A DNA stretch of 42,906 nt from Gammaproteobacteria bacterium (GTDB taxonomy: Bacteria; Pseudomonadota; Gammaproteobacteria; Magnimaribacterales; AG-339-G14), in NCBI GenBank assembly GCA_004213955.1, contig SGZL01000007.1:1-42906 (forward strand), read 5' to 3'. Each line of letters begins with the position of its first letter. Position 1 is the first letter of the stretch. The notes below the pieces were generated by a model. The model saw only the letters and a list, made by a program, of their open reading frames with translations. It searched no databases and had not been told where the DNA came from. Shown here in pieces: positions 1 through 23,604 of the stretch. A program made the position numbers and the translations under genes.

Positions 1-172
1 TAATTGATACAGAAACAGGTACATTAATAATCGGCACTGGAGTTTTAAGTGCATTGACTTGGTCAGAATAAAGAACATTACCTCTTACAGTTAATTCTTC
101 TTGTGCAAACAAGCCACTTGAAATAAAAATTCCACCTGCTACAAGCAAGTTAGATAAAAATATTTTTTTTAT
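1..172 (-). CDS. TonB-dependent outer-membrane receptor, N-terminal part (continues beyond window)
   Basis: This is the 5' end of a gene running off the left edge; about 57 codons are visible. The reading frame encodes a classical signal peptide (positive start KK, hydrophobic core, LFAQ cleavage region), then ELTVRGNVLYSDQVNALKTP and a VPVSVSI segment, which resembles the start of the plug domain of TonB-dependent siderophore or metal receptors. The frame is closed two codons upstream by TAA, so the only possible starts are ATA at 172-170, a second ATA, or a TTG at 148 that would remove the basic part of the signal peptide. ATA at 172 lies 6 nt after a GGGGAG ribosome-binding site and begins MKKIFLS, so I choose it despite being non-canonical. 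Two Fur-type boxes overlie its promoter, which suggests an iron-regulated receptor. The substrate cannot be told from this fragment. Confidence 0.72.
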   Translation of the reverse strand, partial: MKKIFLSNLLVAGGIFISSGLFAQEELTVRGNVLYSDQVNALKTPVPIINVPVSVSI

Positions 173-178
173 AAATTA

Positions 179-187
179 CTCCCCTTT
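179..187 (-). promoter_or_regulatory. Ribosome-binding site of the TonB receptor gene
   Basis: On the minus strand this reads AAAGGGGAG, a strong Shine-Dalgarno sequence in a window where such sequences are usually weak. It ends 6 nt before the ATA triplet at 172-170. It decides the start, because no ATG, GTG or TTG lies at a usable distance downstream in the open frame. Confidence 0.65.
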
Positions 188-201
188 AGATAGTTGAGTA
201 A

Positions 202-229
202 ATGATAATGATTCTCATTATTATGACAA
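202..229 (-). promoter_or_regulatory. Predicted sigma-70 promoter of the TonB receptor gene
   Basis: On the minus strand TTGTCA (229-224, 5 of 6 to the -35 consensus) is followed after 16 bp by TATCAT (207-202, 5 of 6 to the -10 consensus). A start near 195 would give a leader of about 23 nt carrying the ribosome-binding site. One Fur-type box covers the spacer and -10 element and a second sits just upstream of the -35, a geometry suited to repression. Confidence 0.55.
204..222. promoter_or_regulatory. Fur box, proximal
   Basis: GATAATGATTCTCATTATT matches the 19-bp Fur consensus (GATAATGATAATCATTATC) at 16 of 19 positions. It overlaps the predicted -10 element and spacer of the receptor gene transcribed leftward. 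Binding of iron-loaded Fur here would be expected to block transcription. Confidence 0.75.
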
Positions 230-231
230 TT

Positions 232-250
232 GATAATGAGAATGATTATT
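232..250. promoter_or_regulatory. Fur box, distal
   Basis: GATAATGAGAATGATTATT matches the Fur consensus at 16 of 19 positions. It lies 28 bp (start to start) from the proximal box, just upstream of the predicted -35 element. The two boxes are near-perfect inverted copies of one another: 201-221 and 233-253 can pair at 20 of 21 positions counting one G-T. Bases 251-336 beyond it are AT-rich and hold nothing else I can identify. Confidence 0.72.
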
Positions 251-336
251 ATTTTTATATATAGAAATAACTACAAGTTATAAAGGTACAAGTAAAAAAA
301 AGGTACTTTTTTAGAAAGTTATTAAATTTTTTGATT

Positions 337-413
<77 letters not shown>

Positions 414-15094: not shown

Positions 15095-15760
15095 CTATTC
15101 AGTGATTGCGACGTCTAATTGTTCAATGTCAATGACATTATTTATATTTTTTACCAGACCATGAAAAACTTCCCCGGTAAGTTGTTTTTGTTCAACATGG
15201 GGCTCTAGAATATCTTTCCATAACTCTTTAACAGTCGGCTCCTCATTGGGAATAATAGAAGGATCAATCAATGAGATGCCTGAATAAGTGAATTCATTAT
15301 TTTTTGTACTTGCGCTTATATTAGAATTAACCAAATTAAAATCTCCATCAAGTTTAGTATGGTCTTTTATTAACACCAAGTGGGCTTTGCTTTTTAAGTC
15401 TTTTGTTACCAGCCTGCTAAAAGGATAATTTGTCCATAAATCGCCACTTACTAAAATGAAAGGTGAATCGTCCAGGAAACTTTTTCCTTGGATTAAAGCG
15501 CCGCCAGTGCCCAGTAAATTCTGTTCCTTAGAATATTGAATATTCAAATCCAAACTTTTTCCATCTCCAAAGTAATTTATTATTTCGTCTCCCAAATAGT
15601 GTAAGTTAATCAAAACGTCTTTTATTCCTGCACTTTTAAGTTTTAGTAAATTCCATTCAAGCAAGGGTTTGCCCTTAATTGAGACCAATGGTTTAGGAGT
15701 ATCGTTAGTCAATGGCTTCAACCTCTGTCCTTTACCTGCAGCTAAAATAAAAGCTTTCAC
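15095..15760 (-). CDS. murU: Nucleotidyltransferase, probably N-acetylmuramate-1-phosphate uridylyltransferase MurU
   Basis: This 221-residue protein is a sugar-nucleotide pyrophosphorylase-like enzyme: ILAAGKGQRLKPLTNDTPKPL (about 5-25) is the nucleotide-binding signature, LLGTGGALIQG is the substrate loop (about 83-93), and VSGDLW carries the metal-binding Asp. Its partner gene immediately upstream is an amgK-like kinase (ATGA overlap). The same pair, next to lptD-surA-pdxA-rsmA, is the MurNAc recycling module AmgK-MurU of Pseudomonas, which feeds UDP-MurNAc synthesis and bypasses fosfomycin-sensitive MurA. The assignment rests mainly on this context. Confidence 0.82.
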   Translation of the reverse strand: MKAFILAAGKGQRLKPLTNDTPKPLVSIKGKPLLEWNLLKLKSAGIKDVLINLHYLGDEIINYFGDGKSLDLNIQYSKEQNLLGTGGALIQGKSFLDDSPFILVSGDLWTNYPFSRLVTKDLKSKAHLVLIKDHTKLDGDFNLVNSNISASTKNNEFTYSGISLIDPSIIPNEEPTVKELWKDILEPHVEQKQLTGEVFHGLVKNINNVIDIEQLDVAITE

Positions 15761-16773
15761 GAAAAAATTCTTTCCATTTTCTTATTAAGAGGACCTTGTA
15801 AAGAGCTTATAGCTAAAGATAAGTTCTCTAATTCTGTATATCTTGACGAGGTCTCAACTAGATAATTTATTAATCTAGGAAAATCTTTTATACGTTCTTC
15901 TCTGTTTAGCTGCTGATAAACTTGAGACAACTTTCCTAGAATTCTTATTTGCCTTTGAATGCTTGCAAAATCTATAAATTTGACTAGTGATTCAAAACTA
16001 AGTTCTAAGTCAAACTTTTTTTTTACTTTTGAAATATAACTTTTGTACCAACTATGAATTCTTTCTTCAGACCACTCATAGTAAAGATCTTTAAATAAAG
16101 ATGCTAAATCTAAACCAATAGGTCCAATTAAAGCATCTTGAAAATCTAAAATTCCTGCTCTTTTAGAGCTGGTAAAAATTAAATTCCTACATTCGTAATC
16201 ATAATGACAAACTACTTTGGGTTGAGTTTCGAGCTGATTACATACAGCATCGTAATTTTTTTTTATTTTATTAAGAAGTTTATCATCTGACATATCAAGG
16301 AAATTTTTATAAAAATTTTTTTCAAATAAGTTCCAATTCATATCAAAAACTTTTTTATTTAGAGGTGTAAAAAAATTATCATCTTTATAGGATGATTGAA
16401 TTTTAATTAACTCATCTATTGCCTGTTCATAGTATAAATCTGGAGAATTATCTAAATTGAACTGATAAAGGGTATCTCCAAAATCTTCAACAAGAATTAG
16501 GCCAAGGTTTTCATCGTAAGCAAAAATCTCTGGAACATTAACTTTATTTTTTTTAAAAAATTTTCCCTTTGATACAAACAAATAAACACTTTCGTCGATA
16601 CCTGGTGGTACGATCATTAAAATTAAAGAATTTTTTTTTGACTTAACCCTAAAAAATTCTCTTTGGCTAGATTCAATTCTCAGCTGTGAGATAGATGTTA
16701 TATTTCCAAATCCATTATCTTCAAAAGACTTTAAAAGCCAATTATTTTGAGGAACAGATATCTCCAAATTCAA
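15757..16773 (-). CDS. amgK: Aminoglycoside phosphotransferase-fold sugar kinase, probably MurNAc/GlcNAc anomeric kinase AmgK
   Basis: This 338-residue kinase of the APH/choline kinase fold has the catalytic loop CHYDYECRNLIF (about 188-199) and the metal-binding ILDFQDALIGPIGLDLASL (about 207-225), which matches AmgK-type proteins (CHRDYHSRN and DFQDA). The N-terminal lobe contains QREFFRVKSKK. AmgK phosphorylates C1 of MurNAc for recycling through MurU, the next gene. Upstream in place of lptD's immediate divergent partner is an SDR gene, 9 bp away. Confidence 0.82.
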   Translation of the reverse strand: MNLEISVPQNNWLLKSFEDNGFGNITSISQLRIESSQREFFRVKSKKNSLILMIVPPGIDESVYLFVSKGKFFKKNKVNVPEIFAYDENLGLILVEDFGDTLYQFNLDNSPDLYYEQAIDELIKIQSSYKDDNFFTPLNKKVFDMNWNLFEKNFYKNFLDMSDDKLLNKIKKNYDAVCNQLETQPKVVCHYDYECRNLIFTSSKRAGILDFQDALIGPIGLDLASLFKDLYYEWSEERIHSWYKSYISKVKKKFDLELSFESLVKFIDFASIQRQIRILGKLSQVYQQLNREERIKDFPRLINYLVETSSRYTELENLSLAISSLQGPLNKKMERIFS

Positions 16774-21990: not shown

Positions 21991-22781
21991 AAAATCTTAA
22001 TAAAATTAATCCAAAAAAAAGATTTGGACAAAATTTTTTAGAAGATCAAATATTACTTGATGAACTAGCCAACTTAATTGAAATAAAAAATCATGACAGA
22101 TTTATAGAAATTGGTCCTGGAACTGGAAACCTTACCCAATTGATTTTAGATAAGTCAGATTCTTGTGTCTCTGTGGAAATAGATAAAAATTTAATCCCTT
22201 TACTAGAGGAGAAATTTATTAAAAAAAATAACTTTAAACTTATCAATCAAAGCATATTAAGTTTTGATTTAAGTAAGATTACTAAAAAGAAAAAAAGTAT
22301 CCGTCTAGCCGGCAATCTTCCTTACAATCTTTCAAGTCCAATACTTGAGTGGTGTATCAAAAATTCTGAATCAATAATTGATATGCATTTTATGTTGCAA
22401 AAAGAATTTGCGGAAAGATGTGTTGGAAATGAGACTTCTAAATCATACGGAAAACTTAGTGTTATTTGCGACTATTTATTTGAAGTGCAAATTTTAAAGG
22501 ATGTAGATAAATCTTTCTTTAATCCGTCTCCTAAGGTTGATAGCTCTTTTGTAAAATTCAAGCCTAAAAAAGAATTTTTAGATCAAAATGAATTTGCAAA
22601 TCTAAAAAAAATATTAAATCACTTATTTAGTGCAAAAAGAAAAAAAATAAGAAAAACTCTCACTAAAATTTTTAATGAAAGTGAAATCAATAAAATAGAT
22701 TTGGATTTAAATCTTCGACCTGATCAAATGAATACCCAAAACTTTGTCGATTTATCTAGAGTCTATAAAAATCATGGCTAA
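21987..22781 (+). CDS. rsmA: 16S rRNA dimethyladenosine transferase RsmA (KsgA)
   Basis: This 264-residue SAM-dependent enzyme dimethylates A1518 and A1519 in the 3' helix of 16S rRNA. KKRFGQNFLED (10-20) and the SAM motif IEIGPGTGNLT (40-50) are clear, and the catalytic NLPYN is at 110-114. It starts at GTG, overlapping the pdxA stop as GTGA. The apaG gene that follows it in many gammaproteobacteria is absent; apaH begins 8 bp before its stop. Confidence 0.97.
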   Translation: MKNLNKINPKKRFGQNFLEDQILLDELANLIEIKNHDRFIEIGPGTGNLTQLILDKSDSCVSVEIDKNLIPLLEEKFIKKNNFKLINQSILSFDLSKITKKKKSIRLAGNLPYNLSSPILEWCIKNSESIIDMHFMLQKEFAERCVGNETSKSYGKLSVICDYLFEVQILKDVDKSFFNPSPKVDSSFVKFKPKKEFLDQNEFANLKKILNHLFSAKRKKIRKTLTKIFNESEINKIDLDLNLRPDQMNTQNFVDLSRVYKNHG

Positions 22782-23604
22782 TTACGCTGTTGGAGATATC
22801 CAGGGATGTTATGAAGAATTTGAGAAAGGATTAAAAAAAATAAAATTTAATCAAAAGAAGGATTATCTATGGTTAACGGGAGATTTGATAAATAGAGGGC
22901 CTGATTCTTTGAAGACTCTAGAAAAAATTTATGAACTTCGCTCTAGAGTGCATATAGTTCTGGGTAATCATGATCTTCATTTTTTAGCTAGATATTACTC
23001 TGGTCGAAAAAAACAGAAGAGTGATACTTTGAAAGAAGTTTTAAAAGATTCAGATTGTAAAAAATATGCTGAATTTCTAATTAAACAACCCTTTTTCTTT
23101 TCCAAAAAAATTAAACTAAGTAATGGGTCAAAGAAGAAAATAATTATGGTGCATGCAGGTCTTCCTCATGATTTAAGTTACAAAGATTGTCTTAGGCTAA
23201 ACAAGCTTAGTCAGAAATTTATCCAAAAAGACCCAAAAAAAAATCTCAAAAAAATCTTTTTTCATCATAGAAAAACTAATTTTAAAATTACTTCATTACA
23301 AGATAAACTTTCTTTCTTTATCAATGCTTTAACTAGAATTAGAATTTGCGATGATAATGGCAAGATTTTATTTTCTTTTAAAAAGGGTTTAAAAGATCTT
23401 CCATATAATTATTTACCTTGGTTTAAACTTAAAATAAACGCTATTCAAGAAAAAGATTATTTAATATTTGGTCATTGGGCTGCATTAAATGGAAAAACAA
23501 GAAAAAAAAATATTATGGGGTTAGATACTGGTTGTGTCTGGGGTAATAAACTAACTTTTATAAGGCTTGAAGACAAAAAAAAATATTGGATAAAAAGTAG
23601 TTAA
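22774..23604 (+). CDS. apaH: Symmetrical bis(5'-nucleosyl)-tetraphosphatase ApaH
   Basis: This 276-residue metallophosphoesterase splits Ap4A into two ADP and also acts as an RNA decapping enzyme in E. coli. The metal motifs are GDIQGCYEEF (5-14), LTGDLINRGPDS (about 35-46) and VLGNHDLHFLA (about 64-74), with VHAGLPHD and a late FGHWAAL histidine. I start it at the ATG at 22774 (MANYAVGDIQG) rather than 22744, since the first motif must lie at the N-terminus. It overlaps rsmA by 8 bp and directly abuts cca. Confidence 0.95.
   Translation: MANYAVGDIQGCYEEFEKGLKKIKFNQKKDYLWLTGDLINRGPDSLKTLEKIYELRSRVHIVLGNHDLHFLARYYSGRKKQKSDTLKEVLKDSDCKKYAEFLIKQPFFFSKKIKLSNGSKKKIIMVHAGLPHDLSYKDCLRLNKLSQKFIQKDPKKNLKKIFFHHRKTNFKITSLQDKLSFFINALTRIRICDDNGKILFSFKKGLKDLPYNYLPWFKLKINAIQEKDYLIFGHWAALNGKTRKKNIMGLDTGCVWGNKLTFIRLEDKKKYWIKSS

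Follow-up and report, generated by a model that had tools for sequence, protein, structure and literature searches.

A TonB-dependent receptor gene of an uncultured SAR86 gammaproteobacterium has ATA where its relatives have ATG, and there is very good reason to regard this as a private ATG-to-ATA change in an intact gene. Either one base was substituted recently in this lineage or cell, or it is an error in the sequence, and a real change would probably weaken initiation. The window analyzed here is a stretch of 42,906 nucleotides comprising all of contig C26, one of 28 contigs in a genome of 1.06 Mb, and the receptor gene lies at its beginning on the minus strand. Comparison with related genomes indicates that ATG is ancestral, that the change is private, that the gene and its Shine-Dalgarno sequence are intact, and that the gene is under purifying selection. 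Use of the AUA codon and a reduced output are what we infer, with weak expression being plausible. If the change is real, it most likely lowers translation of an iron-uptake receptor that is one of eleven with a plug domain.

The start codon and its ancestral state

The minus-strand leader of the receptor gene is CTAAAGGGGAGTAATTTATAAAAAAAATATTTTTATCTAACTTGCTTGTAGCAGGTGG. The ATA codon (170..172) is preceded by a TTT codon (175-173) and an in-frame TAA stop (176..178), which lies two codons 5' of it, and the arrangement TAA-TTT-ATG is also found at two related loci (L037 and L038). A GGGGAG Shine-Dalgarno sequence (179..184) stands before the ATA with a spacer of 6 nt. From the ATA the N-terminal frame reads (I/M)KKIFLSNLLVAGGIFISSGLFAQ, and translation to the end of the window gives (I/M)KKIFLSNLLVAGGIFISSGLFAQEELTVRGNVLYSDQVNALKTPVPIINVPVSVSI. 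Neither ATG nor GTG was found in the signal-peptide frame. The initial annotation had described both the stop followed by ATA in a frame lacking ATG and GTG and the GGGGAG at 184-179 with its spacing to 172-170, and the minus-strand letters agree with it on each.

The distribution of start codons among relatives suggests that the ATA arose in this genome. The group is recognized as SAR86 from its named relatives, which are single-cell genomes, for example AG-892-C21, AG-907-D15, AG-349-F19, and AG-339-G14. Of six further genomes in the genus, five contain the locus, and these five were aligned with the window. All five have ATG in exactly the column of the ATA, followed by an invariant AAA AAA ATA. 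Because of this match, a chance resemblance of the site to a start is excluded, and the proposal that the ATA codon is the true start site is well supported. The third base of the start codon, which the initial annotation had singled out for comparison, is G in the five congeners and A only in the window. Since all five have ATG, the G-to-A change (C to T when read on the plus strand) is private to the window, with ATG as the ancestral and general state. The window has six private changes in the 292-column alignment and the other genomes have two to fourteen each, suggesting that the other private changes near the ATA are ordinary divergence. The same site was not found in viral contigs.

Structure of the gene and its neighborhood

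The receptor gene is split in the assembly. The window carries its 5' part (1..172, minus strand), which comprises the first 57 codons with the signal peptide and the start of the plug, and the rest is on contig C25 of the same genome (L005:4298-6358, minus strand). Positions 1..91 of the window are identical to C25:48267-48357, an exact contig-end overlap of 91 bp inside the receptor gene, and contigs C25 and C26 are adjacent. The joined gene has 714 codons counting the ATA, ends in TGA, and has no internal stop. No frameshift was found in the joined gene, which bears out the view that the change, whether a mutation or a base error, lies in a gene without a later frameshift. A gene caller limited to ATG, GTG, and TTG would put the start in the wrong place or miss it, and the split over two contigs is a further difficulty for annotation.

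The protein has the N-terminal plug (PF07715) and C-terminal barrel (PF00593) domains. Its score against TIGR01783 (TonB-dependent siderophore receptor) is 227 bits, above the curated cutoff of 223.5, and together with the two domains this upholds the initial identification as a TonB receptor. No equivalog model reached its cutoff against the protein. The plug domain is found in 11 places in the genome. TonB transporters of SAR86 have been described (PMC11582366). Like SAR86 TonB-dependent siderophore receptors of the TIGR01783 type, the window receptor has a plug and a barrel, a signal peptide, and a Fur-box-like operator, and its start codon is the only difference. The gene is of an ordinary SAR86 kind, coding for a TonB-dependent (siderophore-type) receptor and preceded by a Fur-box-like operator.

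Upstream of the receptor gene, the Fur-box-like region comes first, followed by a tRNA gene (anticodon CAT) and then by genes for a sigma-70 factor and a dnaG-like primase. The Fur-box-like operator (200..254) is a self-complementary element of 55 bp and of the GATAATGAGAATNATTATC type, and it is kept in all six congeners. The tRNA gene (337-413, minus strand) comes directly after the sigma-70 gene and is 100% identical in five congeners. By eye it looks more like a tRNA-Ile2 of the lysidine type, which reads AUA, than like tRNA-Met.

Selection and start codons across the genome

The receptor gene appears to be under purifying selection and shows no sign of long decay. Compared with its nearest relative, to which it is 94% identical in protein sequence, the window gene has a dN/dS ratio of 0.10, and other pairs have ratios of 0.06 to 0.11. 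Private codon changes number 28 synonymous and 9 non-synonymous in the window gene and 42 and 6 in its sister (p = 0.25). Under such selection the ATA change would be recent, tolerated, or a base error. A start-lost pseudogene was rejected, with 714 codons open and the dN/dS of 0.10.

ATA starts are not a habit of this genome. A filtered survey of 189 reciprocal-best orthologous gene pairs with the nearest species found one pair, that of the receptor gene, in which the N-terminus is conserved and an ATG in one species aligns with a non-canonical codon in the other. A single case in 189 pairs points neither to a genome-wide habit nor to a generally bad assembly, and a canonical start can be found for all ten of the genome's other TonB receptors. 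Among the other ORFs of the window, 42 of 43 share their start codon with the sister species G006 (AG-892-C21), and the exception (22744-23604) is an over-extended longest ORF. Elsewhere in the genome, a conserved frame on contig C12 (G000:C12:27797-28829, EFENPELWKNQEKSQ...) has no upstream canonical start in either genome, and from inspection by eye this is presumably release factor 2 with its programmed frameshift.

Loss of IF3 was also considered as a cause and rejected. The C-terminal domain of IF3 is present and runs off the end of contig C19, while the assembly lacks the N-terminal half. Six congeners have an intact infC, so the gap is one of assembly and is not evidence of loss. In these six genomes (L161-L166) infC starts with ATG two codons after an in-frame stop, in contrast to the AUU start of E. 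coli infC.

Precedents for initiation at ATA

If the ATA is real, the 30S subunit would most likely be placed by the intact and rather strong Shine-Dalgarno sequence, and the initiator tRNA would read AUA as a near-cognate start at an unchanged position. The product would be the same signal peptide and receptor at a lower level, roughly 1 to 30% of that from AUG as judged from other species. Hecht et al. 2017 reportedly covered all 64 start codons and are said to be the source of the figure of up to 1% for ATA. That figure, which applies to ATA starts in E. coli generally, is one cited in PMC12864459. In E. coli O104:H4 a spontaneous ATG>ATA change in rpoS gave up to 5-fold less protein (PMC12864459). 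S. aureus has AUA starts in infC, ccpN, and citZ, the last only in the NCTC 8325 strain lineage, and the non-canonical starts tested in this species gave about 10% of AUG expression, with ccpN reaching 30% in rich medium (PMC13009471).

The closest parallels to the window are citZ and rpoS. S. aureus citZ has a Shine-Dalgarno sequence and is normal apart from its lineage-specific AUA start, although its host is far from an uncultured gammaproteobacterium. The rpoS case also involves a single G-to-A change in the start ATG of an otherwise intact gene, and in a gammaproteobacterium. However, initiation at citZ was seen by ribosome profiling at about 10% of AUG, and the rpoS change arose in laboratory culture with the protein measured, whereas for the window initiation at the AUA is a prediction. 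The AUU of E. coli infC and the AUA of S. aureus infC and ccpN are similar to the window in being near-cognate AUN codons after a strong Shine-Dalgarno sequence, and the GGGGAG with its 6-nt spacer has the strength and spacing of that type. In contrast, the infC and ccpN starts are regulatory and conserved across species, while only one of the six congeners has the ATA, and no conserved non-AUG start was found among the relatives, with ATG in all five. ATA starts confined to one lineage are thus an established type of event, and the comparison gives no support to an ATA start that is regulated and conserved. Taken alone, the ATA change teaches little about initiation.

Origin of the ATA codon

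The somewhat favored explanation is a real ATG-to-ATA change in the cell or lineage, which would lower but not abolish expression and would be recent or mildly deleterious, as ten other TonB receptors exist. The change is a private transition in an intact gene with low dN/dS, the Shine-Dalgarno sequence is kept and is slightly stronger than in the relatives, and the 11 plug-domain places are consistent with a tolerated reduction in output. Lineage-specific ATA starts in other species (PMC13009471, PMC12864459) also argue for it. On the other hand, the window species and G006 otherwise agree in their start codons, showing that such changes are normally removed.

A base error or amplification artefact is somewhat less probable but is a serious competitor. 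The cell would then have ATG, and the A would have come, for example, from a C-to-T change during single-cell amplification or from a consensus error close to the contig end. C-to-T changes are a common class of artefact, and the plus-strand change belongs to it. The ATA is also 170 bases from a contig end where the assembly breaks, and it is unique among the 189 gene pairs while the remainder of the gene is under purifying selection. However, the window is otherwise clean, with ORFs that are open and match the relative from end to end. The neighboring tRNA gene is fully identical to those of the relatives, and the other private changes nearby look like ordinary divergence.

It is very improbable that the AUA start is a deliberate, selected means of low expression like those of S. 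aureus infC or ccpN. The initial annotation had raised deliberate low-level expression, and the ATG of the close relatives counts against it, since known regulatory cases are conserved and no other congener has the ATA. One point in its favor is the strength of the Shine-Dalgarno sequence. With an E. coli-type anti-Shine-Dalgarno sequence, which was assumed and not read from the window genome, the window leader has a computed pairing energy of -8.3 kcal/mol, and the leaders of the congeners have -6.5, -6.0, -6.0, -3.3, and -0.6 kcal/mol. The window is the strongest of the six, but chance alone would give this in one case out of six.

A second point comes from another SAR86 genus, where homologous TonB-receptor leaders have ATA (MED-G160, L054/L169), ACG (L185), or ATT (L189) at the position of the ATG of their relatives. 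The aligned ATG is absent from three of 20 leaders, whereas a single control gene from these genomes gave none in 22, a comparison that was set up after the window ATA was seen and is not significant (p = 0.10). The MED-G160 leader has an in-frame ATG four codons upstream of its ATA, while the ACG and ATT leaders have no nearby canonical alternative. The non-ATG leaders may be base errors. We consider it very doubtful that SAR86 repeatedly weakens the start codons of TonB receptors in order to set receptor levels, with the window ATA as one selected instance. If several SAR86 receptors do use weak starts, they would form a natural system for tuning nutrient uptake at the level of translation in an abundant ocean group.

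There is equally little to recommend a shift of initiation to the in-frame TTG at 148-146 (146..148, minus strand), since it has no Shine-Dalgarno sequence, a start there would remove the basic part of the signal peptide with both of its lysines, and the orthologues start at an ATG 8 codons upstream, although TTG starts are used in the genome (for example at 15757-16773 of the window, with the same codon in G006). The initial annotation was correct about the first two defects of this TTG, but it is not the sole canonical alternative as had been stated. A second in-frame TTG is present at 110..112 (minus strand), and a start there would remove nearly the whole signal peptide.

Initiation signals in the sister species

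The sister species G006 (L008/L036) has kept the ATG, and its Shine-Dalgarno sequence is almost gone, with the -0.6 kcal/mol at the low end of the range given above. Both sister species thus have weakened initiation signals, each by a different route. Low expression of the receptor gene might be favored in the window species and in G006, which would make the ATA less accidental.
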